Positions 44,033 through 61,240 of a stretch of DNA of 64,000 nucleotides are shown here, in pieces. Position numbers and translations under genes: made by a program. The stretch's first letter is position 1. Each line of letters begins with the position of its first letter. The stretch comes from Candidatus Thioglobus sp. REDSEA-S12_B1. Lineage in GTDB: Bacteria > Pseudomonadota > Gammaproteobacteria > PS1 > Pseudothioglobaceae. The notes under the pieces are model-generated. The model was not told where the DNA came from, searched no databases, and worked only from the letters and a program-made list of their open reading frames with translations. The stretch is taken from the NCBI GenBank assembly GCA_001628405.1, contig LURN01000011.1, positions 1 to 64,000 on the forward strand, given 5' to 3'.

Positions 44033-45744
44033 CCAAATCTAATAACCGTCGTTCATCGAACTGGTATGGAAAAATGGATAAAGATGGATTTATTCATCGT
44101 AGCTGGATGAAAAGTCAAGGTCTTCCTGACCATGTTTTCGATGGCCGTCCAATTATAGGTATTTGTAATACATGGTCTGAGCTTACGCCTTGTAATGCAG
44201 GATTGAGAAAGCTTGCTGAAGGTGTAAAAAGAGGGGTTTGGGAAGCTGGAGGCGTTCCTCTTGAATTTCCAGTAATGTCTCTAGGTGAAACACAAATGAA
44301 GCCTACTGCAATGCTCTTCAGAAATCTCTTATCAATGGATGTTGAGGAGAGTATTAGGGCCTATGGAATTGATGGGGTGGTTCTTTTAGGTGGCTGTGAT
44401 AAGACTACTCCTGGACAACTTATGGGTGCGGCTAGTGTTGACTTACCAACCATTGTTGTCTCTTCAGGTCCAATGCTCAATGGAAAGTATAAGGGTCAAG
44501 ATATAGGTTCTGGAACAGATGTGTGGCGCTTTTCAGAAGAAGTCAGGGCTGGTGATATGACACTCAAAGAGTTTATGGCGGCTGAAACAGGGATGAGTCG
44601 ATCTTCAGGAGTTTGTATGACAATGGGAACTGCTTCAACAATGGCAAGTCTAGTTGAAGGAATGGGTCTGAGTTTGCCGACAAATGCTACACTTCCTGCA
44701 GTCGATGCAAGGCGAATGACCCTTGCACATCTGTCAGGCAAAAGAATTGTGGAAATGGTTGAAGAAGAGCTTAGCCTATCAAAGATTTTAACCAAGGAAA
44801 GTTTTCAAAATGCAATCACTTTGAATAGTGCTATTGGCGGCTCAACTAACTCAGTGATTCATCTTTTAGCAATTGCTGGAAGATCAGAAATTGAGTTAAA
44901 TTTAGAGGATTTTGAAAAAGCTGAAGATATTCCATTATTAGTTAACTGTATGCCTTCAGGAAAATACCTAATGGAAGATTTCTGTTATGCTGGAGGAATA
45001 CCGGCTGTTATGGATCAAATTAAGAACTTTATTAGGCCTGCGAATACAATATTAAATAAAGATATTACTCATTATTTTGATGAGGCCGAAATTTTGAATG
45101 AAGATGTTATTAGGACGATTGACAAGCCTCTAAAGCATTCAGCGGGTTTGAAAGTGCTCAGAGGAAATCTTGCTCCAAATGGGGCCATTATTAAGCCAGC
45201 TGCCGCTTCTGAAGATTTGCTTAAACATGAAGGGGAAGCTTATGTTTTTGAGGATATTGAGGATTTAAAGGAAAATATCGATCGTCCTGACCTGCCAGTG
45301 ACTAAAGATACTGTTCTAGTTCTAAAGGGTTGCGGCCCTAAAGGATATCCTGGTATGCCAGAGGTTGGCAATATGCCAATTCCTAAGGTACTTGTTGAGC
45401 AAGGCGTGAGAGACATGGTGCGTATATCCGATGCAAGGATGTCAGGAACAGCTTTTGGAACCATAGTCTTGCATGTTGCTCCAGAAGCCCATGCAGGTGG
45501 CCCAATTTCAATTGTAAAAACTGGTGATCGAATACAGGTTGATGCAAAGAATGGTCTGCTTGAGTTATTGGTTACAGAGGAAGAAATTAACGAGCGCTTA
45601 AAGTCAAGAAAGCAACCGAAAGAGAATTATTCACGCGGTTACGCGAAACTGTATGTCGAAACCGTTATGCAGGCTGATAAAGGCGCAGATTTAGATTTTT
45701 TGGTGGGTAAAGATACTCGCCTTCCTAACCGAGAATCACACTAA
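44029..45744 (+). CDS. IlvD/Edd-type sugar acid dehydratase, probable galactonate dehydratase
   Basis: A 571-residue iron-sulfur dehydratase of the IlvD/Edd family, of the L-arabonate/D-fuconate-like group. Cluster cysteines lie in GICNTWSELTPCNAG, LGGCDKTTPG and SSGVCMTMGTAST. The C-terminal part has the GCGPKGYPGMPEVGNM loop and the ARMSGTAFG segment. In context it should turn galactonate into 2-keto-3-deoxygalactonate for DgoK, the role filled in many bacteria by DgoD of the enolase superfamily. Substrate assignment is inferred from neighbours; arabonate, fuconate or gluconate are alternatives. Confidence 0.82.
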   Translation: MTKSNNRRSSNWYGKMDKDGFIHRSWMKSQGLPDHVFDGRPIIGICNTWSELTPCNAGLRKLAEGVKRGVWEAGGVPLEFPVMSLGETQMKPTAMLFRNLLSMDVEESIRAYGIDGVVLLGGCDKTTPGQLMGAASVDLPTIVVSSGPMLNGKYKGQDIGSGTDVWRFSEEVRAGDMTLKEFMAAETGMSRSSGVCMTMGTASTMASLVEGMGLSLPTNATLPAVDARRMTLAHLSGKRIVEMVEEELSLSKILTKESFQNAITLNSAIGGSTNSVIHLLAIAGRSEIELNLEDFEKAEDIPLLVNCMPSGKYLMEDFCYAGGIPAVMDQIKNFIRPANTILNKDITHYFDEAEILNEDVIRTIDKPLKHSAGLKVLRGNLAPNGAIIKPAAASEDLLKHEGEAYVFEDIEDLKENIDRPDLPVTKDTVLVLKGCGPKGYPGMPEVGNMPIPKVLVEQGVRDMVRISDARMSGTAFGTIVLHVAPEAHAGGPISIVKTGDRIQVDAKNGLLELLVTEEEINERLKSRKQPKENYSRGYAKLYVETVMQADKGADLDFLVGKDTRLPNRESH

Positions 45745-46514
45745 TGAAAAATTACGCAACTTTTAATGATTTAGAAGACACTTCAGTTTTTATTACTGGC
45801 GGAGGTTCAGGAATTGGAGCCGCGCTCACTGAAGGATTTTTGTCGCAGGGGGCAAAAGTAGCTTTTGTGCAGAGGTCAAAGTGTGATGAGTTTTTAGATC
45901 AAGTTTCATCAAAATATAAGCATAATCCATTGTTTATTCAATGCGACATTACAGATACAAACAATCTAAAGGCTGCAATCTCAGAATCATCTAGAGTTAA
46001 TGGCGAGATTAATGTATTGATTAATAATGCAGCAAACGATACGAGACATTCTCTTGAAGATATGACGCCAGAAGAATGGGATCAGGCAATAAGCATTAAT
46101 CTAAAACCTCATTTCTTTTCAGCTCAAGCTGTTGCACCATCTATGAAGGCCCAAGGTGGTGGAAGCATCATTAATCTTTCTTCTGCCTCCTATCTGATGG
46201 GTAACGCAGGGTATCCAGCCTATGTAGCTTCAAAAGCAGGTATTACAGGCTTAACACGGAGTTTGGCTCGTGAGCTTGGAGGTGATGGCATTAGAGTTAA
46301 TACATTAATTCCTGGCTGGGTTTTAACAGAAAGACAAATGAAGCTTTGGGCTAACGATAAAGACCTATCAAGTCACATGAAAAAACAGTGCCTCAAAGAG
46401 CACTTAGTGCCTGATGACTTGATTGACTCTAGTCTTTTTTTAGCATCTAAAGCGTCTCGAATGATTACTGGTCAGGCCATAGTGGTTGACGGTGGTGTTG
46501 TAGTTACAGGATAG
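45744..46514 (+). CDS. SDR sugar dehydrogenase, probable galactose dehydrogenase
   Basis: A 256-residue classical short-chain dehydrogenase. Cofactor motif TGGGSGIG at residues 18-25, NNAA at 95-98, catalytic Ser near 147, and YVASK with Tyr160 and Lys164. The absence of a conserved Arg after the second strand cannot be judged for NAD/NADP preference with confidence. Between the dehydratase and DgoK it should oxidise galactose to galactonolactone. The ATG overlaps the dehydratase stop (TAATG). No substrate proof is available in sequence. Confidence 0.8.
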   Translation: MKNYATFNDLEDTSVFITGGGSGIGAALTEGFLSQGAKVAFVQRSKCDEFLDQVSSKYKHNPLFIQCDITDTNNLKAAISESSRVNGEINVLINNAANDTRHSLEDMTPEEWDQAISINLKPHFFSAQAVAPSMKAQGGGSIINLSSASYLMGNAGYPAYVASKAGITGLTRSLARELGGDGIRVNTLIPGWVLTERQMKLWANDKDLSSHMKKQCLKEHLVPDDLIDSSLFLASKASRMITGQAIVVDGGVVVTG

Positions 46515-46519
46515 TTAAG

Positions 46520-47431
46520 ATGAGTGAAATTAAAGCTAAATGGATTGCAGCAGACTGGGGAACAACTCATATGCGTGCTTGGGCTATCGGAGAGGAAGAT
46601 AGAGTTTTGGCTTTTAGAGAGTCTAATGAAGGCATGAAAGATCTTCAACAAAATGAATTCGAGCCTGTTTTACTGAGACTCATTGAGAGTTGGCTAGATG
46701 ACACTAAAGTTACAACTGTGATGGCTTGCGGTATGGTTGGAGCTAAGCAAGGATGGGTTGAAACCCCTTACTTAAAAACGCCTTGTGTTCCTCTTGATAA
46801 TAATCAGCTGACCACTGCTAATACTCATGATAAGCGTATTAAAGTTCATCTTGTGCCTGGAGTTATGCAGCATCACCCAGCTGATATTATGAGAGGTGAG
46901 GAGACCCAAATAGCAGGATTCATAAATAAAAATTTAGATTTCAATGGTGTTGTATGCCTCCCAGGTACTCATGCAAAATGGGCTAACATCAAGGAAGGGC
47001 AAATAACAAGCTTTAAAACCTTTATGACAGGTGAGCTCTTTGGTGTTATTTCAAGCCATACTCTGATTAGGCATTCAACTTCGATCAAGGGGTGGAATCA
47101 AGATAGTTTTGAAGCAGGCGTTTTAGAGGGATTTAACAATCCAGGCTCAATTGCGTCAAACCTTTTTTCCCTGAGGTCCGAATCTATAGTTAATGATTTG
47201 AATCGCGACCAAGCAAGATCAACACTGTCAGGACTGCTTCTGGGTGTTGAACTTAATGGGGCTAAAAATTTTTGGCAGGGTAATAACGTTACCCTAATTG
47301 GCTCAGAGCTCTTATCGAATAATTACCATCAAGGGTTAAAAATTCTGGGAGGTCAAAGTCAATTATTTAGTCTCGAGACCGCGACCTTGTCTGGCTTAAG
47401 TTCTGCCTTTAGAGAGCTCAATAATAGTTAA
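46520..47431 (+). CDS. dgoK: 2-dehydro-3-deoxygalactonokinase
   Basis: A 303-residue kinase of the DgoK family phosphorylating 2-keto-3-deoxygalactonate. Landmarks are IAADWGTTHMRAW at the start, ACGMVGAKQGW, ADIMRGEETQIAGF, VCLPGTHAKWAN and FKTFMTGELFGV, all in the family order. It is the feature that most clearly marks the pathway as De Ley-Doudoroff galactose degradation and not a sulfo-Entner-Doudoroff route, which needs no kinase. It is followed by dgoA after 5 bp. Confidence 0.93.
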   Translation: MSEIKAKWIAADWGTTHMRAWAIGEEDRVLAFRESNEGMKDLQQNEFEPVLLRLIESWLDDTKVTTVMACGMVGAKQGWVETPYLKTPCVPLDNNQLTTANTHDKRIKVHLVPGVMQHHPADIMRGEETQIAGFINKNLDFNGVVCLPGTHAKWANIKEGQITSFKTFMTGELFGVISSHTLIRHSTSIKGWNQDSFEAGVLEGFNNPGSIASNLFSLRSESIVNDLNRDQARSTLSGLLLGVELNGAKNFWQGNNVTLIGSELLSNNYHQGLKILGGQSQLFSLETATLSGLSSAFRELNNS

Positions 47432-47436
47432 GTAAC

Positions 47437-48042
47437 ATGGAAAGGAATATCATTGCCATCTTAAGGGGAGTCAGGCCAGAAGAAGTGCTTCAAATAGCAG
47501 CATGTGTTGTAGATTCAGGAATTACTCAAATAGAGGTCCCAATGAATTCTCCAGATGTTTTTGATAGTATTCAATTGCTTCATGATGAACTAGCTGAGCA
47601 TATTTCTGTCGGTGCTGGAACAGTAACCAGTGTAAATCAGGTTAAGACCCTTGAAAGTATAGGTATTGACTTTATTGTTTCTCCAAATTTCGATCCAAAG
47701 GTTGTCGAGGCAACAAAGAATGCAGGAATGTTGAGTTATCCTGGTGTGATTACTCCGACAGAATGCTTTTCAGCTTTAAATTGCGGAGCTGATGGACTCA
47801 AGTTCTTTCCGGCATCCCTTCTTGGAGTGGCTAATTTGATGGCCTTAAAGGCAGTTCTTCCAGATAAAATCCCTTTATACATGGTTGGCGGTGTTGGGCC
47901 AGAAAACTTTTCGTCATGGTTCAGTGCTGGAGCGACTGGCTTTGGTATTGGCTCAGGAATCTACAAGGCTGGAGATACATCTCAGACCGTTGCTTTGAAA
48001 GCTAAACAGATTGTTCAATCATACGACGAAGCAAAAAAATGA
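47437..48042 (+). CDS. dgoA: 2-dehydro-3-deoxy-6-phosphogalactonate aldolase
   Basis: A 201-residue class I aldolase of the KDPG/KDPGal family. The early AILRGVRPEEV, the TQIEVPMNSPD strand, VGAGTVTS and the Schiff-base Lys122 in DGLKFFPAS fit DgoA; PMNSP is the DgoA form of a motif that differs in Eda. It yields pyruvate and glyceraldehyde-3-phosphate. Its end overlaps the lactonase gene by 4 bp. Confidence 0.93.
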   Translation: MERNIIAILRGVRPEEVLQIAACVVDSGITQIEVPMNSPDVFDSIQLLHDELAEHISVGAGTVTSVNQVKTLESIGIDFIVSPNFDPKVVEATKNAGMLSYPGVITPTECFSALNCGADGLKFFPASLLGVANLMALKAVLPDKIPLYMVGGVGPENFSSWFSAGATGFGIGSGIYKAGDTSQTVALKAKQIVQSYDEAKK

Positions 48043-48902
48043 TTAAAGAGTATTTGTCGGTTGATTCTTGCAGTTTGGGAGAGGGGCCTCTATGGCATCC
48101 AAAGCTAGACTCTTTGTTTTGGTTTGACATTAACGCCCATAAGATGTTCAATTGGAAGGACGGTGAATTAAAAGTTTGGAAATTCTCTGAGCCAGTATCT
48201 GCTGCTGGCTGGGTTGATGACGAAAGCTTAGTTGTTGCCACTGCGTCATCACTAATTAGGTTATCGCTCACCTCAGACATCAGAACATCTTTAGTCGACT
48301 TAGAGGCTGACATGCCGCATACACGCTCAAATGATGGCCGAGCTGACCCATGGGGCGGATTTTGGATTGGGACAATGGGACTCAATGCAGAAAAAGAAGC
48401 GGGCTCAATCTATCGTTTTTACAAAGGCCAGTTAAAAAAAATACATCAACACTTGACTATTCCAAATAGTATTTGTTTTTCACCCGATAAAAGATTTGTT
48501 TACTTTGCAGACACTAGACAAGAGAAAATCTGGAGACAAGATCTAGACCTAGATTCAGGCTGGCCAATTAATGAGCCAACTGTATTTATTGATTTTAAAG
48601 CGCAAGGCCTTCATCCTGACGGATCCGTTTGTGATAGCGAGGGCTTTCTTTGGAATGCTCAATATGGAGCTTCTAGGTTAGCTAGATACAGTCCAGAGGG
48701 GTGGTTAGACAGAGTAGAGAACTTTCCAGCTTCTCAAGTCACATGCCCAGCTTTTGGGGGTGAATCCTATAGCACTATTTTTGTTACGTCTGCTAGCCAG
48801 GGGCTTAATGATGGTGATTTGAAAGTTGAACCATTGGCTGGTAAAGTGTTTCATTTTGAATCTGACGCGGTCGGTCTGGCTGAGTATCAAGTCGTATTGT
48901 GA
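48039..48902 (+). CDS. SMP-30/gluconolactonase family lactonase, probable galactonolactonase
   Basis: A 287-residue six-bladed propeller. The N-terminal metal-binding Glu lies in CSLGEGPLWHP, LFWFDINAHKMF follows, then TRSNDGRADPWGGFWIGTMG with the central Asn/Asp pair, IPNSICFSPDKRFVYFADT, and HPDGSVCDSEGFLW with the third metal ligand. It opens the sugar lactone made by the neighbouring dehydrogenase. The galactono- rather than gluconolactone role is inferred from dgoK and dgoA. It is encoded just before the beta-galactosidase. Confidence 0.88.
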   Translation: MIKEYLSVDSCSLGEGPLWHPKLDSLFWFDINAHKMFNWKDGELKVWKFSEPVSAAGWVDDESLVVATASSLIRLSLTSDIRTSLVDLEADMPHTRSNDGRADPWGGFWIGTMGLNAEKEAGSIYRFYKGQLKKIHQHLTIPNSICFSPDKRFVYFADTRQEKIWRQDLDLDSGWPINEPTVFIDFKAQGLHPDGSVCDSEGFLWNAQYGASRLARYSPEGWLDRVENFPASQVTCPAFGGESYSTIFVTSASQGLNDGDLKVEPLAGKVFHFESDAVGLAEYQVVL

Positions 48903-48909
48903 GGCAATC

Positions 48910-50811
48910 ATGAATCCAAAACTAGGAAGCTGTTATTATCCTGAACACTGGCCTGAGGATCAGTGGCAGAAGGATGCAGAGGATATGATTGCTTCAGGTT
49001 TAACCTGGGTTAGAATTGGAGAATTTGCCTGGAGTCGACTAGAGCCAGAAGAGGGTGATTACAACTTCGAATGGCTTGATCGAGCTATTTCCATTTTGGG
49101 CTCTGCTGGTTTAAATGTCGTCATGAGTACCCCAACTGCAACACCTCCTCGATGGGTTGTTGACAAGTGGCCAGATATGCTTATTGTGGATGATGAAGGG
49201 CGGACTCGTCGATCTGGATCCAGAAGACACTATTGCTTTTCGCATGAGGGGTATCTGAATGAGGCGATCAAAATTTCAGAAATCGTTGCCAAGCGATATG
49301 GAGCAAATCCATACATTAAGGCATGGCAGCTCGATAATGAATATGGCTGTCACGACACAACTCTTTCATACAGTGTCTCGGCTTTAAGAGCTTTTAGAAT
49401 CTGGCTTGAAAAAAAATATAAAACGATTGATCGACTCAATGAGTCATGGAAGAATGTTTTCTGGTCTATGGATTACAATGATTTTGAACAAATAGAGTTA
49501 CCAAATTTAACGGTTACCGATCCTAATCCAATTCATGCCCTCGACTTTAGGCGCTTCAGCTCGGACCAAGTTATTAATTTCAATCAAAGTCAGTCTCAAG
49601 TCTTAAGAAAATATACTCAAATGCCCCTGATTCATAACTATATGGGTCGTATTACTGACTTTAATCATTATGAAGTAGGAGAAGATTTGGATGTAGCAAG
49701 CTGGGATAGTTACCCTTTGGGTTTTCTTGAGGATCGATCAAATCAAAGTGATGAATTTAAGACCAAATTTATGCGTTTTGGGGATCCAGATTTTCAGTCT
49801 TTTCATCATGATTTATACCGAACTGTTGGTAATGGCAGGTGGTGGGTTATGGAGCAGCAGCCTGGACCAGTTAATTGGGCGCCATTCAATCCTGAACCTG
49901 CAACTGGAGCGGTCAGACTTTGGACCTGGGAGGCGATTGCTCATGGCGCTGAAGTGGTTAGTTATTTTCGCTGGAGACAAGCTCCATTTGCACAAGAGCA
50001 AATGCATGCAGGACTTCAAAGGCCTGATGGGGTAGCTGCTCCAGGTTTAAATGAGGCATCTCAGGTGTTTTCTGAGTTGAAGAATTTTGAGAGTATTGAT
50101 CAAGTACAATCAAAAATTGCACTTATTTTTGACTACGAGAGTTGTTGGGCCTGGGAAGTTCAACCTCAAGGTAAAGACTTTAACTATTTTGAGTTGGTTT
50201 ATGATTATTACAAGGCTCTTAGAGCGCTTGGACTATCAATAGATATTTTGCCTCCAAATCAAGGTGATTTAAGCGGCTATAAAGTGGTTTTAATGCCCGG
50301 CTTAATGCATATTGGAGATGAGCTCAGCAGAGCAATGAAGGAGTTTGACGGTGTTTTAATTTCAGGACCAAGAACTGGTTCCAAAACTCTTGATATGGCT
50401 ATACCTGAAAAACTACCACCGTTAATACCAGGCATCAACGGGACGGTTGCTCGCGTTGAATCATTAAGGCCAAATGTAACAATATCAATCAAAGAGCTAG
50501 GAAATTTTAAAAAGTGGATGGAGACTTTGGTTGACTCTGACAATGTTATTCAATTCTGTGATGACGGTAGGCCAGCAATTATTGGAAATGAAAACAATTT
50601 TTATATTACTGGTTGGGCTGATCAGGAGACTTTAAAAAATATATTCTCTGGAGTATGCGACTCTCAAGATATAAGTTTTACTGAGTTAAATGATTGTGTA
50701 AGAACAAGAGAGACCTCAAGCTACCGTTTTTGGTTTAATTTTAGTGAAGAGGAGTCAACAGTTGGTTCAATCAAAATTCCAGCCTCAGGAGTGATCTGGG
50801 AAGCTATTTGA
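48910..50811 (+). CDS. Beta-galactosidase, GH42
   Basis: A 633-residue GH42 enzyme starting at the ATG at 48910, 7 bp after the lactonase stop and with GTGAGG just before it; a longer start inside the lactonase gene is not credible. N-terminal LGSCYYPEHWPEDQW and GLTWVRIGEFAWSRLEP are typical. The acid/base Glu144 lies in QLDNEYG and the nucleophile is Glu315 in WWVMEQQPG. A trimerisation domain and a C-terminal beta domain follow. No signal peptide, so it acts inside the cell on imported beta-galactosides. It ends the galactoside operon, 1 bp from the convergent ATPase gene. Confidence 0.93.
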   Translation: MNPKLGSCYYPEHWPEDQWQKDAEDMIASGLTWVRIGEFAWSRLEPEEGDYNFEWLDRAISILGSAGLNVVMSTPTATPPRWVVDKWPDMLIVDDEGRTRRSGSRRHYCFSHEGYLNEAIKISEIVAKRYGANPYIKAWQLDNEYGCHDTTLSYSVSALRAFRIWLEKKYKTIDRLNESWKNVFWSMDYNDFEQIELPNLTVTDPNPIHALDFRRFSSDQVINFNQSQSQVLRKYTQMPLIHNYMGRITDFNHYEVGEDLDVASWDSYPLGFLEDRSNQSDEFKTKFMRFGDPDFQSFHHDLYRTVGNGRWWVMEQQPGPVNWAPFNPEPATGAVRLWTWEAIAHGAEVVSYFRWRQAPFAQEQMHAGLQRPDGVAAPGLNEASQVFSELKNFESIDQVQSKIALIFDYESCWAWEVQPQGKDFNYFELVYDYYKALRALGLSIDILPPNQGDLSGYKVVLMPGLMHIGDELSRAMKEFDGVLISGPRTGSKTLDMAIPEKLPPLIPGINGTVARVESLRPNVTISIKELGNFKKWMETLVDSDNVIQFCDDGRPAIIGNENNFYITGWADQETLKNIFSGVCDSQDISFTELNDCVRTRETSSYRFWFNFSEEESTVGSIKIPASGVIWEAI

Positions 50812-50812: not shown

Positions 50813-51871
50813 TTATTTAATTCTGAGCTCAGTTTTAGGGTCAAAAAGTAAAACTTTTGAAGTTTTAGCTTCTATCCCAACCATTGAGCCAGTTGCAGGT
50901 AGTTTTTCTTCTCTTGATTCAACTACAATCTTTTCGCCATTTGGTGTTTTAAGGTAGACATAAGAAATATCTCCTAATGCCTCAGTGAATTCAACTTCAA
51001 GGTCCCCTTTATCAACAAGATTTAGATGCTGAGGTCTCATACCAATAAGTAATTCTGAGTGAGAAGAAGAAATTGATTTACTGATCTCAATATTGATCGA
51101 TTTTAGGCTAGGTATTGAAAGTTTAGATCCATTAACCTCGCCTCTGACAAAATTGATTGTTGGCGAGCCAATAAACCCTGCAACAAAAACATTTTTGGGG
51201 TCATCATAAAGCGATAGAGGTGTTCCAACCTGCTGAACTAAGCCATCCTTTAAGACAACTATCTTGTCAGCCAAGGTCATAGCTTCAACTTGGTCATGTG
51301 TAACATAAATAATGGTCGTACCCAGTTCGCGATGAAGTCGGGAGATTTCAACACGCATTTCAACCCTAAGTTCAGCATCAAGGTTAGATAAAGGCTCATC
51401 AAATAAAAATACTTCTGGTCCCCTAACAATTGACCTGCCTATAGCAACTCTTTGTCTTTGACCACCGGAGAGAGTTTTAGGTTTTCTATCAAGATACTCC
51501 TCCAAGTGGAGAATAGCTGCAGCTTCGTTAACCTTTTTATCAATTTCAGCCTGAGGAACTTTGGACATCTTAAGTCCAAAGCCCATATTTTCCTTAACTG
51601 TCATATGAGGGTAAAGAGCATACGACTGAAATACCATCGCAATTCCTCGATCAGCAGGGTGCATACTGGTAACGTCTTTATCTCCAATATGAATTTGCCC
51701 GCTGGTCACCTCCTCTAAACCAGAAATCATTCTAAGTAATGTAGACTTTCCGCAACCTGATGGGCCAACGAAGACGCAAAATTCACCATCTTGAATCTCT
51801 AAGTCAATTCCATGGATGACTTCTAATTCATCATATTTTTTTGTAGCGTTGGATATATTTAAAGATGCCAT
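50813..51871 (-). CDS. Sugar ABC importer ATPase, UgpC/MalK type
   Basis: A 352-residue ATPase of the CUT1 type. Walker [21 protein letters not shown] at the Q-loop, signature LSGGQRQR, Walker B VFLFDEPLSNLD and the switch His in YVTHDQVEAMTLAD, followed by the C-terminal TOBE/regulatory domain (ELLIGMRPQHLNLVDKG). The operon at 38941 lacks an ATPase, so this is its likely partner. It lies on the minus strand after the IclR gene, 17 bp apart, so its expression may follow iclR. Confidence 0.92.
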   Translation of the reverse strand: MASLNISNATKKYDELEVIHGIDLEIQDGEFCVFVGPSGCGKSTLLRMISGLEEVTSGQIHIGDKDVTSMHPADRGIAMVFQSYALYPHMTVKENMGFGLKMSKVPQAEIDKKVNEAAAILHLEEYLDRKPKTLSGGQRQRVAIGRSIVRGPEVFLFDEPLSNLDAELRVEMRVEISRLHRELGTTIIYVTHDQVEAMTLADKIVVLKDGLVQQVGTPLSLYDDPKNVFVAGFIGSPTINFVRGEVNGSKLSIPSLKSINIEISKSISSSHSELLIGMRPQHLNLVDKGDLEVEFTEALGDISYVYLKTPNGEKIVVESREEKLPATGSMVGIEAKTSKVLLFDPKTELRIK

Positions 51872-51888: not shown

Positions 51889-52677
51889 CTAATATTTTTT
51901 TTCTGGGAAGCTCCAAGCTCCAGCCTCTCTTCCAATTAATTCAGAAGTCTCGAGTAATTCAGGCTTAAATTTTTCAAGGCTTTTAAGGCTATGAATATCA
52001 ATCGAGCTAGTAATCGAAAGACCGCCAATAACCTTGCCATTAGATGTAAGGATTGGCGAAGAGATGCAAATGATTTTTTCCTCATGCTCCTGTCGATCAA
52101 ACGCAATCCCCTCTTTTTTAATAGAGGCCAGTTCTTTTTTTAGTGCTTTCGCAGAGGTAATCGTGTGTTGCGTATATTTATGAAAAGCTTGCTTCGATAT
52201 TACCTTATTTAACTCTGACTCATCCAAGAAAGCCATCATTGCCTTTCCTACACCCGTACAGTAAGCGGGCCCAACCTTGCCAGCTTGAGAATACATCTCA
52301 ATGGGTGATGCAGGATTTCTCTTGTCAACATACAAAACTTGACCATTATCGAGCTCTGCAAGATGAACTGTTTCTCCAACTTTTGCTGATAAATCATCAA
52401 TAAAAGGAACAGCAACAGGAGCTAGTGAACTTTGTAACCATGCAGAATGAGCCATTCTCACAAGCTTAAGTCCGAGCTTGTAAGTTTGCTCTTCTTCATT
52501 GTAGCTAAGCATATCTTGATTTAAAAGTGTTTGGAGGAGCCTGTAAAGTGTAGCTTTTGGATACTTGCTGGTTTTTAACAAACTTGAGAATCTAACTGGA
52601 GATCCAATTTCAGCAACTTCACTCAGAACGTCAAGCGCTTTTCCAACAGTGCCGTCTCCTCGTTTCTCATTTGTCAT
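51889..52677 (-). CDS. IclR-family transcriptional regulator
   Basis: A 262-residue regulator with an N-terminal winged helix-turn-helix (about residues 10-75, GTVGKALDVLSEVAEIGS, then the recognition region KATLYRLLQTL) and the C-terminal effector domain of the family (GETVHLAELDNGQVLYVDKR, TGVGKAMMAFL, GGLSITSS). It is divergently arranged with glpK and co-directional with the sugar ATPase. It is the only sugar-type regulator in 38680-64000, hence the best candidate to bind the shared TGTATACT elements. Effector unknown. Confidence 0.9.
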   Translation of the reverse strand: MTNEKRGDGTVGKALDVLSEVAEIGSPVRFSSLLKTSKYPKATLYRLLQTLLNQDMLSYNEEEQTYKLGLKLVRMAHSAWLQSSLAPVAVPFIDDLSAKVGETVHLAELDNGQVLYVDKRNPASPIEMYSQAGKVGPAYCTGVGKAMMAFLDESELNKVISKQAFHKYTQHTITSAKALKKELASIKKEGIAFDRQEHEEKIICISSPILTSNGKVIGGLSITSSIDIHSLKSLEKFKPELLETSELIGREAGAWSFPEKKY

Positions 52678-52758
52678 ATCTTAACTCAGTGTATATTCAA
52701 AATTAATGGCTCTAAGCAATGTTTTTAGGGTCATTTTTGAATAAATTTTAACAGATAA

Positions 52759-52776
52759 TGTATACTACATTTGAAT
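52759..52776 (+). promoter_or_regulatory. Shared sugar-island cis-element, copy C (iclR/glpK)
   Basis: TGTATACT at 52759-52766 followed directly by ACATTTGAAT (52767-52776), 118 bp before the glpK start and 82 bp from the iclR start. It matches the copies at 38842-38859 and 59840-59858, one base shorter in the spacer. The TGGAACnnnGTACCA partner of those copies is not clearly present here (only TGG at the matching distance). Confidence 0.55.
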
Positions 52777-52883
52777 AAGTTTTCAATAGTAAAACTATGT
52801 TTCATTATTTGGAAAAACTTGATAAAATTCATTATATTGGTCCTTAAAAAAGGCAAATTTAACAATAAATTTAAGAGAATAAG

Positions 52884-54383
52884 ATGGCAAAAAAGAGTAC
52901 GTATGTTCTATCAATTGATCAGGGGACAACCTCATCGAGAGGTGTTATATTTGATAAAAACTATGAAATTGTTTCAATAGGTCAAAAAGAATTTACACAA
53001 TTTTTCCCAGATTCGGGTTGGGTTGAGCATGATCCAGAAGAGATTTGGATGTCTACGCTTGAAAGTTGTCACAGCGCTCTCAAAGAATCAAAAATAGACC
53101 CGAGCCAGATTCGAGCCGTTGGTATTACAAATCAGAGAGAAACTACAGTAGTGTGGGATAAAGACACTGGTAAGCCTATTTATAATGCAATTGTATGGCA
53201 AGATCGTAGAACTTCTGATCAATGCCAAAATTTGAAGGATTTAGGTCATGAGTCACTCGTTAATGAAAAAACAGGCTTGTTGTTGGATCCATATTTTTGT
53301 GCCACCAAAATTGCTTGGATTCTTGATAATGTTTCAGGAGCAAGGCAGAAGGCTAATGAAGGCCAACTTCTTTTTGGGACAATTGACTGCTTTCTTATGT
53401 GGCGCTTGAGCAATCAACAAATTCACTCAACTGATGCTACTAATGCTTGTAGAACGATGCTATACAATATCCATGATGGTTGCTGGGATGAAGACTTGTT
53501 AAAGCTTTTTAACATTCCATCATCTATGCTACCTAAGGTTTGTGATAATGCTGCTGACTTTGGAAAGGTTGATGAAAGTATCTTTGGTTCAGAAATTCCT
53601 ATTACTGCATCGATTGGAGATCAGCCTTCGGCTCTGGTTGGGCAGGCATGTTTTCAGCCCGGAATGGTTAAGTCTACTTATGGTACCGGATGTTTTGTTT
53701 TAATCAATACCGGCTATCAGCCAGTTAAGTCTAACAATAAATTACTAACTACTCTAGCTTTCCAAGTAAATGGTAAAACCTGCTATGCTCTTGAAGGCTC
53801 AATCTTTGTTGCTGGAGCAGCAGTTCAGTGGCTTCGAGATGGCCTAAAGTTTATTGAGTCAGCGCAAGAATCTGAAAGCCTAGCAATGCAGGCTGATGAC
53901 TCACAAGATGTTTATTTGGTTCCTGCATTTGTTGGATTAGGTGCTCCATATTGGGATCCTGATTGTCGAGGTGCACTTTTTGGTATGACTCGAAATACTG
54001 GCCCCGCTGAAATCACAAAAGCAACTCTTGAGTCTGTCTGCTATCAAACCTCTGATTTATTGAGTGCAATTGCAAAAGATTTAGGTGAAGGTAAACTCAG
54101 CGCTATTAGAGTAGATGGAGGTATGGCTGCATCAAATTGGACTATGCAAATGCTTTCAGATTTAGTTGAGCTCCCAGTTGACAGGCCCAAAAATCTAGAG
54201 ACTACTGCTCTAGGAGCAGCCTACTTGGCTGGAATGCAGATTGGTTTTTATCCGTCAATGAGTGATTTTTCAGATTCTTGGCAATCAGACAGTCAATTCA
54301 ATTCAAAAATGACAAGTGATTCTCGAGAAAGAAAGCTTGCTGGATGGAAAGACGCTGTGAAAAGAACGCTTTCCAATAATTAA
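52884..54383 (+). CDS. glpK: Glycerol kinase
   Basis: A 499-residue FGGY-family kinase. Landmarks are [12 protein letters not shown] at the start, the glycerol-binding [15 protein letters not shown] and [39 protein letters not shown], and the C-terminal ATP-site segment [17 protein letters not shown]. These fit GlpK closely rather than a xylulokinase. It phosphorylates glycerol in the cytoplasm. It stands alone between the IclR gene and the convergent hydroxyacid dehydrogenase gene, which it overlaps by 4 bp. No glpD or glpF is present here. Its placement among glycosidase genes suggests use of glycerol freed from glycosylglycerols. Confidence 0.93.
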
Positions 54384-55306
54384 CTCTCAAGAAAATCAAT
54401 CGTCTTTTCTGCAATAAATTGACTAACTCTGACGTTTGATTCAGATGTTACACCTGAGTTGTGAGGGGTTAGAATACAGTTCATTGAGTTTGAGATTTGT
54501 TTATAAAAGTCCTCTTGAACTGGCTCAGAGCTATACACGTCAAGAGCAAAGCCACTAATTACATTTTGACTATAAGCTTTAATCAAATCAATCTCGTTGA
54601 CAATTGAACCTCTTGAAGAGTTAATAATAATTGGATTGCGCTTCATCAAATTAAATGAATTTTCATTGATTAAGTCTCTTGTGTCATTGGTTAAGGGAAG
54701 GTGAATCGAAATTACATCAGAAAGACTAAAGAGCTTTTCTTGTTCCACAAGAGATATATTGAATTCAGAGACATCGGATTTCTGAACAAAAGGGTCGTAA
54801 GCGATTACTTCTGCTCCAAAGACCTGGGCCAACCGACAGACCTTTCTACCGATGGTACCAAAACCAAGAAGTCCAAGAGTTTTTCCGCCTAACTCTCTCG
54901 ACTCAATAGAGGTTCTTGGCCATTGCCCAGAAGCAGTTCCGGCGTGAGCAATTGGTATATTTTTTAATAATGATAATGCACAAGTAATGACATATTCAGC
55001 TACCGAGTCAGCATTCATGCCTGTTGCTGGTTGAACAAAAATACCATTAGCTGAACAAAAATCAGTATCAATATTGTCTAGACCGACACCTAGTCTTCCA
55101 ACAAAACTTAATTTATTCGCCTTCAATAGAAGTTCTTCAGTAAGCTGAGTCTTATTTCGAACTATGACAGCATCAGTTTCCATAATTAAAGAGCTCAAAT
55201 TCTCGTGATTTTCATGAAGACTAGGATCATAAGTTACTTCAAAAATTTTTGAAATTTTATCAACACTGTCTTGCTCCATGAATTCTGTTATTAGTACTTT
55301 TTTCAT
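54380..55306 (-). CDS. D-2-hydroxyacid dehydrogenase (SerA type)
   Basis: A 308-residue NAD-dependent dehydrogenase. Rossmann motif GFGTIG (148-153), and the catalytic triad Arg233 (SSRG), Glu261 (SSEP), His282 (TPHNS). The start, with [15 protein letters not shown] and RNKTQL, resembles what I remember of (S)-sulfolactate dehydrogenases (SlcC); this is recall and not proof. Glycerate, glyoxylate or another 2-hydroxyacid are alternatives. It is the last gene of the minus-strand sugar operon, 3 bp after the kinase gene, and converges on glpK. Confidence 0.82.
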
Positions 55307-55309: not shown

Positions 55310-56215
55310 CTATATTTGTTTAGATGGTTCTATTTGATTTAAAAATTCTTTTACTTCTGGATAGTCTGGGAGAGTTTTAATTCCTCCAGATCTAGTGCAC
55401 TTGAGGGATGCGGTAGCAGTTGCTAACTCGATAGCCTCCTTTGAGGTTTTAGTCCTGATAAATTGAGCAAACGCTCCATGAAAAACGTCTCCAGCGCCAT
55501 TAGTCTCTTTGACGTTAATCTTTGGGGATTGACAATGGAAAATATCTCCATTTTCAATCCAATAAACGCCTTTAGCTCCAAGAGTTACAGCATAAAACTT
55601 TTGATTTTTTTGGTAAAGACTTTTTAATGCATCAATAATTGGCATATTGTCTGTGAAGCGATTTAATCCAGTTTCAGAAAAAATTGGGTGAGAGGCAAAA
55701 TTAACCACGTCATCTAGAAGATTGCTTTTGGTGAAATTATCAAGGTCGACAACGCAATTAACCTTGTATTTATAAGATTCTACTGCAACGTGATGGGCGG
55801 CTTCAATCCAATTCGTATCCACAAGATATGACTGGTTTTCAGAAAACTCAAATGCGGGTAAGGATTTATCATTAGTCAGCTTTTCTTCGTTAAATACTGC
55901 GAGCATTCTTTCACCTTTTCGATCCTCAAATATATGACTTTGAGATGTTTGAGCATCGACTACATCAATAGACTTTTGGATAGATATTCCAGAATTTAGC
56001 AATTCCGACTTTAAATAATCAGCAGCATCATCGTCGCCAAAACGCCCTATAAATTCAGCTTCGCCACCTAGTGATTTAATTGCAAAACTTGCAACTGGAG
56101 CAGGTCCGCCTAGGCGTTTTTCAAGCCCATTAGCAACCAACTTAATAGGTTTTTCAGGAAATTCCTCAATCTTGATAACTCTATCCAGAAAAATTGGTCC
56201 AACACATGTAATCAT
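55310..56215 (-). CDS. PfkB-family sugar kinase, YihV-like
   Basis: A 301-residue ribokinase-fold kinase. The catalytic Asp243 lies in NGAGDVFHGAF, and the LGGPAPVASFAIKSLGG and FIGRFGDDD segments form the substrate side. Details match my recollection of YihV, the 6-deoxy-6-sulfofructose kinase: the SQS and KGER pieces after the lid, FSETGLNRFT, and ASLKCTRSGG near the end. Other PfkB ketose kinases share some of these. Between a Gfo/Idh/MocA gene and the hydroxyacid dehydrogenase gene, and in an operon with an aldolase, it should phosphorylate the C1 or C6 of a ketose. Confidence 0.82.
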   Translation of the reverse strand: MITCVGPIFLDRVIKIEEFPEKPIKLVANGLEKRLGGPAPVASFAIKSLGGEAEFIGRFGDDDAADYLKSELLNSGISIQKSIDVVDAQTSQSHIFEDRKGERMLAVFNEEKLTNDKSLPAFEFSENQSYLVDTNWIEAAHHVAVESYKYKVNCVVDLDNFTKSNLLDDVVNFASHPIFSETGLNRFTDNMPIIDALKSLYQKNQKFYAVTLGAKGVYWIENGDIFHCQSPKINVKETNGAGDVFHGAFAQFIRTKTSKEAIELATATASLKCTRSGGIKTLPDYPEVKEFLNQIEPSKQI

Positions 56216-56251: not shown

Positions 56252-57340
56252 TTAGAGGTTAAATTCACTCATTTGAACCACTCTTCCCTCTTTAATTGAT
56301 TTTTCAGCAGCTTCTCCAATTGCGACTGCAAGTAATCCATCTCTCAGAGTAACTTCTGACTCGGTATTGTTTCTAATGGCGTTGATGAAAGAGGTGTGCT
56401 CATAATATGTAGAGCCATGGTGGTGGCCTGCATCATGTATTTTAGGGTCAACCGTTATATTTTCTTTAAATGCAGTTTGTTCGTCTCTCATTCCAATCCT
56501 GATGTCAGAGTTAGTTATCCCAGATGCATTTGATGGAACTTCGGTCTCAATTTTTCCAATAGAGCCGACAGCACACAACTCCTCTTGATATTCAGAGTTT
56601 TCCGCAAACATACATAAATCCAAGAAGGCTCTAACACCATTCTCAAAATCAACAATGACAAAAGCATTATCAATAATATCTGGTGTCATTCCATCATAGG
56701 TCTCATCAAGATGGTTTACATCTATATTGCCACTAGCATAAACTTTAGTGGGTTCACTTTGGGTAATCAGTCTCATAAGGTCAAAAAAATGACAGCACTT
56801 TTCGACTAGAGTTCCTCCAGTTTTAACAGCAAAGCGATTCCAGTCATCTACCTTGTGAAGGAATGGGAAGCGATGTTCTCTGATTGAAAGCATCTTTAAA
56901 TCACCAATAGTTTTATTATGTATCTCCTTGATCATTCTTTGAACTGGAGGCATGTATCGATACTCCATTGCAGTCCAAATGACTCCAGGATAATTTTCAG
57001 CAAGTTTCTCAAACTCTTGACAGTCCTTGACAGTTGTACATAGAGGTTTCTCAATTAGAAGATGAACCTCTGACTTCATGACATCTTTGAGTACATCGAT
57101 ATGGGTAAAGTTAGGAGTTGCAATGATAAATGCATTAGCAATATTCGCTTCAATTAAGTCATTGTAATTATCGAAGATAGCAACGTCGTTAGTAAGCAAA
57201 TCAAGACTCTCTTGGATAGATTTCTCACTCGTATCACACAATGCTACAACCTCAGCATCATCTATCAAGCCAATGTTTAAGATGTGCTCCTGTCCCATAC
57301 AGCCGGCACCTATTATTGCATATTTAATTTTTTCAGTCAT
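56252..57340 (-). CDS. Gfo/Idh/MocA-family oxidoreductase or NAD-dependent glycosidase
   Basis: A 362-residue protein with a nucleotide-binding domain (GAGCMG at 11-16), the family EKP motif at 97-99 (LLIEKPLCTT), and the typical C-terminal domain (RYMPPVQRM, GGTLVEKCCHFFDLMRL, SVKAHDAGHHHGSTYYEH-like His cluster around AGHHHGS). It could oxidise a sugar, or be an NAD-dependent glycosidase like the recently described Gfo/Idh/MocA-type sulfoquinovosidases (GH188). No GH31 sulfoquinovosidase is in this window. It overlaps the isomerase gene by 4 bp. Substrate unknown. Confidence 0.8.
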   Translation of the reverse strand: MTEKIKYAIIGAGCMGQEHILNIGLIDDAEVVALCDTSEKSIQESLDLLTNDVAIFDNYNDLIEANIANAFIIATPNFTHIDVLKDVMKSEVHLLIEKPLCTTVKDCQEFEKLAENYPGVIWTAMEYRYMPPVQRMIKEIHNKTIGDLKMLSIREHRFPFLHKVDDWNRFAVKTGGTLVEKCCHFFDLMRLITQSEPTKVYASGNIDVNHLDETYDGMTPDIIDNAFVIVDFENGVRAFLDLCMFAENSEYQEELCAVGSIGKIETEVPSNASGITNSDIRIGMRDEQTAFKENITVDPKIHDAGHHHGSTYYEHTSFINAIRNNTESEVTLRDGLLAVAIGEAAEKSIKEGRVVQMSEFNL

Positions 57341-58713
57341 AACGTGTAAGTTGGTATGTTCATTTGTTGTCCAAAATGAATAAGTTTGTCAGAAATATCA
57401 CCATAAGTAAATGCCACATGATGCTCTAATCCACCCTTAAACATTTGCTCTAATTTATGTGCGCTGTCATCCCCTAAATTAATTACTCCTGAAGTTCCTG
57501 AGAATGAATTCGGTCGATCGAGAACCTCACCATTCATTACAAAAAACTGAAGCTTTCCTTTTGCCTTAGAGACCCTAAATATCGTAATTTTTCCTTCCTT
57601 CAGGCTAAAGTCATGAAGGAGTGGTTTTTTTCTATTTGAGTGAATTCCTGACCTTGCGGTACCTTCTTTTGCCATACTAATAGGTGCTAAGCCGCAATGC
57701 CAAAAAACTAGAGAATTATCTGATTTATCAACATCAACAATATCGACTAAAAGCGAAGGGTTGTTATTCATTTGATTGAGAATGTTACAACTGATACCTC
57801 CCAAAACATCTGCCTCGCATGCACAACTGACCATCTTTTCATTCATCATTGCCATAGGGCCGCATGAAGCGCATCCATATTCCGTAAATGTTTCAGGCCA
57901 GCATCGAATGGCAAACGCATCTAAATTATGTTTATCTTTTAGGTTTTCAAGTCCGTGAAAAATAGAAAGGCTCTTGTCGAACTCTTCCTGAACCAATTCT
58001 TCTGTGCCTGCTAGGTAGTTAGAGACCTTGTTTTTGGTTTTCACAATCGTCTCCACTTCAATACCCTTTGCTTCATCAAAAAGGTCCTCTAGCTCGAGAT
58101 CTACGAGAGAAACATTAAGCTTGGATGTGACTTCATTAGAGTCATAGTCGCAGGTATCAAAGCCTTCAGGCCTTGTCCCAATAATTCCGATTGTTTGCTT
58201 ATCGATAGAGTAGTCAAAGTCAGCTTGTGGATCAGAAATAGTGGCTATATTCCATGAAGTATCTTTAGATGAATTTTGATTGTTTATGAAGTTAGAAAAT
58301 AGCATTTCGTTTTCAGTTTCATCCTCTTCCATGATTACAAATTCAGGAGTAATACTATTTTTAAGCAATGAGTGCATTGCTAGATTAAGACCGCAAATTG
58401 AATTCAATCTTAATCTTCCACCCGTTCTTGGTTCTGGAAAAGATACAATGCATATTGGTTTCTTGATAGCATTTGCAAAGTTTAGGAGGAACTTGGCATC
58501 TGTAAAAGTAGTTTGAAATAGAAAAACCTTATCAAAATCATGATCATTAAAAAATGCTAAAGCGTCATCAGCTGTTGCATCGTTTGTGATGAGACTATCA
58601 AATCCCATTGCATCTGGTACTAAAGATAGCAGCAGTGATTTTGCTTTTTCAAATTTAGATTCAGCAAATTCAACATCAAAAGTCTCTCTTGCAAGTGCCA
58701 AATATCCAATCAT
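57337..58713 (-). CDS. L-fucose/arabinose isomerase-like protein (COG2407 type)
   Basis: A 458-residue protein of the FucI/AraA-like fold. It has an N-terminal Rossmann-like half (residues 1-200, with FPEPRTGGRLRLNS) and a metal-site half with RCWPE at 270-274, CEADVLGG at 299-306, WHCGLAP and a late Gly-His region LEHHVAFTYGD. The family isomerises aldoses and ketoses with a bound metal. In this operon (aldolase, isomerase, oxidoreductase, kinase) it would make a ketose for the kinase. It overlaps the aldolase gene by 4 bp. It is unrelated to YihS, so if the substrate is sulfoquinovose it would be a different isomerase type. Confidence 0.78.
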   Translation of the reverse strand: MIGYLALARETFDVEFAESKFEKAKSLLLSLVPDAMGFDSLITNDATADDALAFFNDHDFDKVFLFQTTFTDAKFLLNFANAIKKPICIVSFPEPRTGGRLRLNSICGLNLAMHSLLKNSITPEFVIMEEDETENEMLFSNFINNQNSSKDTSWNIATISDPQADFDYSIDKQTIGIIGTRPEGFDTCDYDSNEVTSKLNVSLVDLELEDLFDEAKGIEVETIVKTKNKVSNYLAGTEELVQEEFDKSLSIFHGLENLKDKHNLDAFAIRCWPETFTEYGCASCGPMAMMNEKMVSCACEADVLGGISCNILNQMNNNPSLLVDIVDVDKSDNSLVFWHCGLAPISMAKEGTARSGIHSNRKKPLLHDFSLKEGKITIFRVSKAKGKLQFFVMNGEVLDRPNSFSGTSGVINLGDDSAHKLEQMFKGGLEHHVAFTYGDISDKLIHFGQQMNIPTYTL

Positions 58714-59732
58714 TTAAAGCCTCCAAATTCTTTAGTAAACTGCTCAGGGTTATCAATTTTAAATCCATTATCAAAATAATTTTCAAGAGATTGGGCATTT
58801 TTAGCAGTGAGTTCATTAAGTTTTTTTACATAATCAACAGAGTCATTAATAAGGCCTTTTTCTATTGCATCAATTTGCGGATAGTTCTTAAAAGCATCTA
58901 GCCAAATCGTTCTTCCTGCAAGATAGCCTGAAGCTCCATTTTTGTATGCAAGTTCCAAGCATTTGTAGAAGGAGTCCTTCCCCATTCCTGAAGATAAAAC
59001 AACCCATGGCTTATCATTAGTTGCTTCAGAAAGTTTTCTGAATGCTGTTTCAGTCTCTTCAGATATCTCACCCTCAAGTTCACTGCTGTCGACAGGACTC
59101 TCGAGTTTGAAGATATCAACCTTATATTCATCTTTTGAAAATTCTTTGACGCTATCAATGACATGTTGAGTTTTTTTCTGTTTTTGCTCTTGATATTCAA
59201 TAGTGTGGTTTTCATCATCTTGAAATGGGTAAACAAGAAGCTCAAGCAAGAATGGAATACTGTATTTTTCGCACTCTTCTCCAATCTCTCTTACATATTT
59301 TTTTTGATGCTCTAAGGATTCTTCTTCAGCGTCAGGTCTATACCAAGCTAAAACTTTAACCGCATCACCACCAGCTCTTTTAATTTTCTCAACACTCCAG
59401 TTATCTATATTGCTTGAATAACGACCTTTCTCAGTTTCCACAAAACTGTGCTCTTCGAGGGTAATGACAAGACCTTTTGATTGGTTATATTTCAGAATAT
59501 TTGCTAATGAATAGTGAGGATCCATTAGGATTGCTGTAGCCAGCTTTGACAAGTGCTCAGTAATTAATTTTTTACATTCTACGACTTGAGAGTAGGTGTA
59601 ATTCTTTCCAGTTGAAGAAGTGATGATGTTAAAAATCGGTGGTCTTTGGTCTACAGCGAGCATTTGAAAGTGATGATTATCAGTACAAAGCTTTTTAAGG
59701 TGAATTAGTTTTCCCAGGGTATCAGTTTTCAT
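58710..59732 (-). CDS. LacD/YihT-type class I sugar-phosphate aldolase
   Basis: A 340-residue class I aldolase of the tagatose-bisphosphate aldolase family. The Schiff-base Lys209 is in VDIFKLESPVD, matching the LacD/YihT pattern, after FQMLAVDQRPP at the start and AGGDAVKVLAWYRPD. Near the end are WVVLSSGMGKDSF and NGASGYLAGRTIW. It should split a ketose-1- or -6-phosphate to DHAP and a C3 aldehyde. I start at the ATG at 59732, since the upstream extension to 59840 lacks family residues and runs into the regulatory element. There is no visible ribosome site, so the leader may be short. Confidence 0.85.
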   Translation of the reverse strand: MKTDTLGKLIHLKKLCTDNHHFQMLAVDQRPPIFNIITSSTGKNYTYSQVVECKKLITEHLSKLATAILMDPHYSLANILKYNQSKGLVITLEEHSFVETEKGRYSSNIDNWSVEKIKRAGGDAVKVLAWYRPDAEEESLEHQKKYVREIGEECEKYSIPFLLELLVYPFQDDENHTIEYQEQKQKKTQHVIDSVKEFSKDEYKVDIFKLESPVDSSELEGEISEETETAFRKLSEATNDKPWVVLSSGMGKDSFYKCLELAYKNGASGYLAGRTIWLDAFKNYPQIDAIEKGLINDSVDYVKKLNELTAKNAQSLENYFDNGFKIDNPEQFTKEFGGFK

Positions 59733-59786
59733 GCTATTGATTATTATTAAAAAAAAATGTGGCTTTTTAGACTTGGTTTTAAATAG

Positions 59787-59858
59787 TGGAACGCTGTACC
59801 AAAAATCTAAACTTAATTTTACTGTTATATATGAATTCATGTATACTTCAATTTGAAT
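59787..59858. promoter_or_regulatory. Shared sugar-island cis-element, copy B (aldolase operon / importer 2)
   Basis: TGGAACGCTGTACCA at 59787-59801 is a palindrome with one mismatch per half. TGTATACT at 59840-59847 begins 53 bp after it, followed by TCAATTTGAAT (59848-59858). TGAATTCAT lies at 59832-59840. The arrangement is nearly the same as upstream of 38941 (52 bp there). The site is between two divergent operons, 108 bp from the aldolase start and 112 bp before the binding-protein start, so it could govern both. Confidence 0.6.
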
Positions 59859-59958: not shown

Positions 59959-61209
59959 ATGAAAAAAAGTATTTTATTGGCATCCGTTCTTGCCGCCTCC
60001 TCGTTCAGTGTTAATGCAGCAGAGATTAAGTTTGTTTGCTATCAAGACTCGAATGAGTGTGACGTTTTGCAACAGATGTCATCTGTTTGGGAGAAATCAA
60101 CTGGTAACACAGTAAACTTTGAGGTGGTTGGTTATGACGTAGTTAGAGACCAGCTTGAAAACCAACTAGAGGCAGGTTCAGCGCCAGATGTTGCGCGTAT
60201 TACAAATCTAGGTGGATTGAATCAGTACTACCTTGATCTAACTCCTTATGTTGATGCTGGAGCTTGGGAAGCTAACTATGGTGCTACATTGCCATGGTAC
60301 AGAAAACCATCTGGTGACAACGGTATTTATGGCTGGCAAACTCAGTTGACTGTTACTGGCCCATATGTAAACGTAACCATGTTTGAAGATGCAGGTGTTG
60401 ATATGCCAGAAGAAGGTGCTAGTTGGGATGACTGGGCTGATGCTCTAAGAGTAGTTAAGTCTGAGCTTGGTTTAACGTCAGGTCTTGCAATGGATAGAAC
60501 AGCTCATAGATGGGCTGGTCCTGCTTTCTCTTATGGAGCTAAATTCCATGAAAATGGTGTTCCAATCCTAGTTGATGAAGGTTTTAGAGATTTTGCTGAA
60601 ACATTTGTTGGATGGCACGAAGAAGGCCTAATGCCTGCTGAAGGCTGGCCAGCTGGTGGTGGTACTGCATACAGAAATGCCGCACCTCTTTTCCTTGACG
60701 GAACTGTAGCTATGCACATGTCTGGCTCATGGATGCTGAATAACTATGATACTAATATCACTGACTTTGAGTGGAAAGTAGTACCAATTCCTTGTGGTCC
60801 AGGTGGCTGTGGTGCAATGCCTGGTGGTTCTGGAATTGTCGCCTTTAAATCTACTAAGCACCCTGAAGTTGCAGCATCATTTGTTGACTTTTTGTCACAG
60901 GCTGGAAGAGCTGGCTATTTTGCAGCTAACACAAGAAACATTACTGCACACCAAGGCCTTCAAAAGGCAGGAATTGACTATCCTGGTGTAAGTGCTAGAG
61001 TTTCAGAGGGTCTTTCAACTTTTGCGGCTAATGCTGGTAAAGCAGCAGAATCTACGCCACAAGCGTACTGGTTCCAAGGCTACAATAAGAACTTTGCCAT
61101 TTACGGTATTGTTCCTGACTACATCACTAAGGCAATCACAGGTGAAATGAGCCTAGATGATGCTTTAGCAGCAATCGATGCTGATGTTGCAGCGAAGATA
61201 GCTGAATAA
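59959..61209 (+). CDS. Sugar-binding protein of ABC importer 2 (family 1)
   Basis: A 416-residue periplasmic protein. GGAGAG at 59949-59954 decides the ATG at 59959; an upstream TTG at 59947 would lie inside this ribosome site. The signal peptide ends near VNA-A. It follows family 1 layout (EIKFVCYQDSNECDVLQQMSSVW, RDQLENQLEAGSAPDVARI, GIYGWQTQLTVTGPYVNV, HMSGSWML). Cysteines at CYQDSNEC and CGPGGCG may form disulfides. As partner of the isomerase, kinase and aldolase operon across a shared promoter region it should bind that operon's sugar or its glycoside. Confidence 0.88.
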   Translation: MKKSILLASVLAASSFSVNAAEIKFVCYQDSNECDVLQQMSSVWEKSTGNTVNFEVVGYDVVRDQLENQLEAGSAPDVARITNLGGLNQYYLDLTPYVDAGAWEANYGATLPWYRKPSGDNGIYGWQTQLTVTGPYVNVTMFEDAGVDMPEEGASWDDWADALRVVKSELGLTSGLAMDRTAHRWAGPAFSYGAKFHENGVPILVDEGFRDFAETFVGWHEEGLMPAEGWPAGGGTAYRNAAPLFLDGTVAMHMSGSWMLNNYDTNITDFEWKVVPIPCGPGGCGAMPGGSGIVAFKSTKHPEVAASFVDFLSQAGRAGYFAANTRNITAHQGLQKAGIDYPGVSARVSEGLSTFAANAGKAAESTPQAYWFQGYNKNFAIYGIVPDYITKAITGEMSLDDALAAIDADVAAKIAE

Positions 61210-61240
61210 ACATTATTCAGTTATACTAAAGTTCTAAACT

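Follow-up and report, generated by a model that had tools for sequence, protein, structure and literature searches.

Within a 64,000-nucleotide stretch of a Candidatus Thioglobus genome (the window) we found three promoters, and on another contig a fourth, that carry a composite module, in which the 8-mer TGTATACT would serve as the −10 element and a separate 37-bp tandem palindrome as the operator of an IclR-family protein. The four promoters, those of a galactoside operon, of iclR/glpK, of a sulfoquinovose (SQ) operon and the adjoining importer 2, and of ugpBAEC, very probably form one regulon. Control of galactosides, sulfoquinovose, glycerol, and glycerol-3-phosphate by one IclR regulator is well supported in silico, because the palindrome is conserved before iclR in lineages as distant as Pseudothioglobus and the Roseobacters, recurs at the four promoters, and co-occurs with iclR. 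The initial annotation had placed the galactoside, glycerol, and aldolase operons under one regulator, presumably IclR; this link is supported, but the element that it named, TGTATACT followed by TTTGA(A/T), was the wrong one. This would give an uncharacterised IclR protein an operator that can be tested and a regulon of four operons, and in the marine genus Pseudothioglobus it would tie together the regulation of sulfoquinovose breakdown, galactosides, glycerol kinase, and the uptake of glycerol-3-phosphate.

The 8-mer and the predicted core promoters

TGTATACT had been reported to occur three times in the window, always in sugar promoters. An exact search of all 64,000 nt agreed and placed the copies at 38842-38849, 52759-52766, and 59840-59847, each on the plus strand and preceding transport or sugar genes. 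The further claim that there is no fourth copy is true of the window; in the genome, however, another contig carries one (G000:C1:33909) in a promoter whose architecture matches the window sites. By itself the 8-mer is not significant: shuffled windows contained 1.73 copies on average and at least three in 29 of 100 shuffles, the own genome holds 23 copies versus 33 of a reversed control, and 13 of the 19 genomic copies outside the four regulon promoters lie within reading frames. Many random genome-wide occurrences, which the initial annotation had taken as grounds against its motif, are what we found for the 8-mer and not for the 37-bp operator.

At the three window sites, TGTATACT is followed by TACA-TTTGAT, ACA-TTTGAA, and TCAA-TTTGAA, respectively. 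The spacer is 4, 3, and 4 bp rather than the 6-7 bp first given, and a pattern search with a gap of 5-8 bp before TTTGA(A/T) returned no match. In orthologous promoters, TTTGA(A/T) was found after TGTATACT in 2/12 gal, 1/2 ugp, 5/8 SQ importer, and 5/10 glp cases; because of this poor conservation in relatives, it was rejected as half of a regulatory site. Two other candidates were discarded as well, namely, a palindrome at the glpK site (AATGTA-TAC-TACATT), which is lost in relatives, and GAATTCAT, which stands ahead of TGTATACT at two sites, but at different distances (14 versus 8 bp), and which itself varies in relatives.

TGTATACT is near-invariant across the orthologous promoters of four operon types, and one relative (L012) carries instead TGTTATACT, a perfect extended −10 form. 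It is most likely the sigma-70 −10 box (TATACT) of the galactoside operon, glpK, and importer 2 promoters. All three have a −35-like hexamer, separated from TATACT by 16-18 bp, which gives predicted plus-strand core promoters at 38822..38849 (TTCAAA-16-TATACT, galactoside operon), 52737..52766 (TTGAAT-18-TATACT, glpK), and 59818..59847 (TTTACT-18-TATACT, importer 2). Each −35/−10 pair reaches 9/12 matches, and singly such pairs are common by chance. For 32 orthologous promoters, the −35 match was 3.92/6, compared with 2.96 ± 0.14 in shuffled upstream sequence (p = 0.0005), the relatives being non-independent samples. On the minus strand, TGTTAAAAT, which overlaps the glpK core promoter, is a candidate −10 of iclR, and a candidate SQ operon promoter spans 59845-59816 (TATACA-18-TAAAAT), its −35 being the complement of bases in the importer 2 −10 TGTATACT.

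It is rather improbable that TGTATACT, together with the AT-rich sequence upstream, is instead recognised by a second regulator with a more global role or by a special sigma factor, common to these and a few further promoters, with IclR acting as a local switch. −35-like hexamers at the standard distance suffice to account for the promoters, the bases upstream of TGTATACT differ at the gal and glp promoters, and most of the remaining genomic copies are, as counted above, inside reading frames. What speaks for such a factor is that the AT-rich stretch plus TGTATACT, TATATNAATTNATGTATACT, has exactly three copies genome-wide, ahead of the SQ importer, of a TRAP transporter operon (G000:C31:11605, L152), and of the ATP sulfurylase gene sat (G000:C49:23195, L153), the latter two copies having similar flanks and no operator; a factor common to these three promoters is possible. 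Moreover, TGTATACT is kept more exactly than a −10 box requires, and thus another protein could touch it.

The predicted tandem operator and its association with iclR

The iclR gene (51889..52677, minus strand) encodes a protein with HTH_IclR and IclR_C domains (both PF09339 and PF01614 score above their gathering cut-offs), the best solved relative of which is 1mkm, an IclR-family regulator. Downstream lies an ABC transporter ATPase gene (50813..51871, minus strand), a neighbour also in Roseobacter loci. Our comparison took in 12 related loci, through their iclR-glpK promoters, and about 29 more distant ones, through their iclR promoters; the distant loci have about 60% protein identity and are nearly all from Rhodobacteraceae. 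Some 110 bp ahead of iclR, the 12 Pseudothioglobus/SUP05 loci and nearly all Roseobacter-type loci have kept a common block. It is 37 bp long and consists of two 17-bp palindromes with centres 20 bp apart (consensus GTTYYA-N5-TRGAAC-N3-GTNYYA-N5-TGGAMM); it would be the operator of the IclR protein, presumably bound by a tetramer.

Within the window, predicted operators lie on the plus strand at 38779..38815 before the galactoside operon (GTTTCATATAATGGAAC ATT GTACTAATAGTTGGACA; conserved in the relatives' gal promoters), at 52779..52815 between iclR and glpK (GTTTTCAATAGTAAAAC TAT GTTTCATTATTTGGAAA; just downstream of the glpK −10), and at 59776..59812 between the SQ operon and importer 2 (GTTTTAAATAGTGGAAC GCT GTACCAAAAATCTAAAC). 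The last is the weakest of the four, its right half being degenerate, and is nonetheless kept in seven genomes. The fourth, outside the window, precedes ugpBAEC (G000:C1:33845). Every operator-bearing promoter of the own genome also carries TGTATACT; it begins 63 bp after the operator start at gal and 64 bp after it at both the SQ importer and ugp, and TGGAAC is 52-54 bp from TGTATACT in these three promoters. Published group 1 sites of the IclR family read GKTYCRYW3-4RYGRAMC and occur in tandem with centres 18-22 nt apart (PMC8222616), a type to which all four predicted operators conform.

Support for the sites comes from two independent tests with different matrices. The first matrix, built from 27 unique non-Thioglobus sites of iclR promoters, nearly all from Rhodobacteraceae, gave its three highest scores in the window to 38779, 52779, and 59776 (20.2, 19.5, and 10.8), whereas the next unrelated place scored 9.1 and the highest of 50 shuffles 8.1. 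The second, trained on the relatives' gal and glp sites with own-genome, SQ, and ugp sites left out, gave 46.1 for gal, 44.9 for glp, 37.7 for ugp, and 15.6 for SQ; the next unrelated place reached 2.6, and the highest of 100 shuffled windows 14.2, barely below the SQ score. With up to two mismatches allowed, the operator was found at exactly four places in the own genome and the control at none. The 29 genus genomes yielded 30 matches to the operator pattern, as against 5 for the control, and those with an assignable place lie at gal, iclR/glpK (glpD-glpK in L006, L007, and L010), SQ, or ugp. Both iclR and the operator were present in 14 of the 29 genomes and neither in 13; each stood alone in one, the operator without a detected iclR in G017 (a genome 70% complete). 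The one-sided Fisher p for this co-occurrence is 2.7e-6, which, like the shuffle p values, is optimistic, as related genomes are not independent and kinship was uncorrected.

These data leave very little room for the initial reading, in which TGTATACT, a spacer, and TTTGA(A/T) are themselves the IclR binding site. Although the 8-mer is near-invariant in four operon types and accompanies every own-genome operator, TTTGA(A/T) is poorly kept, TGTATACT lacks the palindromic form of the family's sites, and the Roseobacter iclR promoters show the tandem palindrome but not the 8-mer. The operator-free copies before the TRAP transporter and sat also argue against it, as does relative G002, in which iclR was not found and importer 2 still has TGTATACT before it, together with a degenerate operator. 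It is scarcely credible that the shared features stem from promoter duplication or from chance in AT-rich DNA, without joint regulation: the AT-richness of the genome and a frequency of TGTATACT no lower than chance would fit this view, but the operator is far too rare a pattern to be put down to chance, goes with iclR throughout the genus, and precedes an unlinked operon, ugp, which lies on another contig and is carried by 2/29 genomes.

Operons of the predicted regulon

The galactoside operon (38941..50811, plus strand) encodes a binding protein and two permeases, a GH36 alpha-galactosidase and a GH42 beta-galactosidase, and enzymes of the De Ley-Doudoroff route (an IlvD/EDD dehydratase of galactonate type, an SDR dehydrogenase, a DgoK-like kinase, a KDPGal aldolase, and an SMP-30 lactonase). 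The gal binding-protein gene of one relative (G019:C1:262931-264168; L057, L058) is in two pieces, possibly through a frameshift or an assembly error.

glpK (52884..54383, plus strand) certainly encodes a glycerol kinase (TIGR01311, above cut-off). The glpD of the own genome lies elsewhere (G000:C34:24044-27312; L145, L175) near a GlpR-like DeoR gene, and glycerol metabolism therefore seems to be under two regulators. In the SUP05-cluster relatives L006, L007, and L010, glpD stands directly behind the iclR operator, followed in L007 by glpK. The genes behind the operator at G000:C1:33845 are ugpB, ugpA, ugpE, and ugpC, all four of which reach their NCBIfam cut-offs, with UgpB crystal-structure relatives as well; ugpBAEC is thus the predicted glycerol-3-phosphate importer. 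UgpB was found in 2 of the 29 genus genomes (G000 and G007), with the operator upstream in both.

What had been called the aldolase operon is, as judged from its encoded proteins, a sulfoquinovose pathway with a GH188 sulfoquinovosidase. Its genes are all on the minus strand. The first, for which the start was taken at 59735 and not at 59840, encodes a class I DeoC/LacD-type aldolase (58710..59735; best solved relative 8tnf, with sulfofructosephosphate aldolases also among the relatives). It is followed by genes for a sulfoquinovose isomerase-like protein (57337..58713; NF048012 E 2.9e-90, below the equivalog cut-off), the Gfo/Idh protein SqgA (56252..57340), a predicted GH188 NAD+-dependent sulfoquinovosidase, a PfkB kinase (55310..56215), the best solved relative of which is sulfofructose kinase 7ag6, and, last in the operon, a D-isomer-specific 2-hydroxyacid dehydrogenase (54380..55306). 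SqgA aligns best with the GH188 sulfoquinovosidases 8qc2/8qc3 (E 5e-115), and it keeps the sulfonate-binding R166/L170/K172 of ArSqgA and the catalytic Lys107, Tyr136, Glu189, His193, and His321, within the segments EHRFPFLHK, EKP, EYRY, VEKCCH, and HHGSTYYEH. Of the sulfo-EMP steps, isomerase (below the equivalog cut-off), kinase, and aldolase were recognised; no gene of SLA reductase (YihU) or SLA dehydrogenase (SlaB) type was recognised in the operon, which has the 2-hydroxyacid dehydrogenase instead, and this enzyme might act on sulfolactaldehyde or sulfolactate. Importer 2 (59962..63779, plus strand), a solute-binding protein with two permeases, probably takes up sulfoquinovose or SQ-glycerol, as its position suggests.

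Across the genus, the GH188 gene is present in 15 of the 29 genomes. Seven of these (G000, G003, G004, G007, G011, G015, and G019) carry the operator and TGTATACT at the SQ promoter. In G028, G001, G009, and G013, the operator is absent and a DeoR/GlpR-type regulator gene stands directly before the aldolase gene, and in G025, G006, and G002 a DeoR-type orthologue is near the SQ operon. An adjacent or nearby DeoR gene was found in 0/7 genomes with the operator versus 7/8 of the others (Fisher p = 0.0014, for genomes that are not independent; G015 has a 69% identical DeoR copy elsewhere, and the G025 promoter is outside the region read). The genus offers a natural experiment, in which one SQ operon has an IclR operator in seven genomes and a DeoR-type neighbour in others. 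In G028, G001, G009, and G013, the DeoR/GlpR-type gene (in G028, L123:749-1549; G028:C9:5348-6145) lies between importer 2 and the SQ aldolase gene, and GAAAAT-rich repeats in the intergenic region before the gene may be the operator of DeoR itself.

Mode of action, origin, and comparison with known systems

At glpK, the predicted operator begins 13 bp after the −10, where bound IclR would stand in the way of RNA polymerase and so repress. At gal, importer 2, and ugp, the operator is centred some 59-60 bp before the predicted +1, a typical activator position, which would suit activator-like or dual action; for the SQ operon, read from the opposite strand, it sits at the predicted start. Since its position differs between promoters, the sign of regulation cannot be read from position. 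Dual or effector-dependent action of IclR is slightly favoured over pure repression, to which we give an appreciable but smaller chance. The IclR family includes repressors, activators, and dual regulators (PMC8222616).

The four operons have glycerol as a common chemical theme: galactosylglycerol and sulfoquinovosylglycerol would release glycerol for GlpK, and Ugp would import the GlpK product. A tentative extension is that IclR regulates the use of membrane glycerolipid head groups, the module having widened from a local galactoside regulator. The sources would then be MGDG/DGDG for galactosylglycerols, SQDG for sulfoquinovosylglycerol, and phospholipids for glycerol phosphates; one effector (e.g., glycerol-3-phosphate, glycerol, or a glyco-glycerol) would turn on all routes, glycerol kinase would be their common step, and the IclR operator would have replaced the SQ operon's own DeoR-type regulator as the regulon widened. 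If this is true, the polar leftovers of algal thylakoids would be a single class of substrate to a streamlined marine bacterium. Literature searches on galactosylglycerol use and on IclR galactose regulons gave nothing specific; among the open-access papers searched, none described an IclR regulon that covers sulfoquinovose use, and Thioglobus and sulfoquinovose were mentioned together once, in passing.

iclR was not found in 54 sampled genomes of ten other genera of the family, which suggests that Pseudothioglobus acquired it. In the Roseobacter-type genomes, iclR and the genes for a galactoside importer and the De Ley-Doudoroff route are transcribed divergently, and the simplest history is that of a local galactoside regulator, the regulon of which was widened in Pseudothioglobus. 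The Roseobacter loci (Ruegeria, Shimia; L013-L041) share with the present one an orthologous regulator of about 60% identity, the ATPase neighbour, the type of galactoside operon, and the operator. They differ in that the seven Roseobacter-type genomes searched have exactly one operator each, at iclR, whereas the glycerol, SQ, and ugp sites were seen only in Pseudothioglobus.

As for the transport operon, gene order and the NCBIfam equivalogs UgpB, UgpA, UgpE, and UgpC are as in E. coli ugpBAEC. The E. coli ugp operon is controlled by phosphate starvation; here, an IclR-type operator precedes the genes. Similarly, E. coli has the DeoR-family regulator CsqR, whereas the SQ operon here has the IclR operator. 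With the SqgA-containing sulfo-EMP pathway of Arthrobacter (PMC10755693), it shares the GH188 sulfoquinovosidase, a PfkB sulfofructose kinase homologue, and a class I aldolase, and it differs in its fucose-isomerase-like SQ isomerase, its 2-hydroxyacid dehydrogenase, and the lack of a recognised YihU- or SlaB-type gene. Finally, the predicted operator resembles the group 1 sites of Suvorova and Gelfand 2021 (PMC8222616), in the main text of which 'galact' and 'glycerol' do not occur, in its GTTYCA-N5-TGRAAC tandem, in the 20 bp between centres, and in a site adjoining the regulator gene. Most IclR members in that study regulate themselves and one or two adjacent operons, whereas the regulon proposed here would comprise four promoters, that of ugp lying on another contig.
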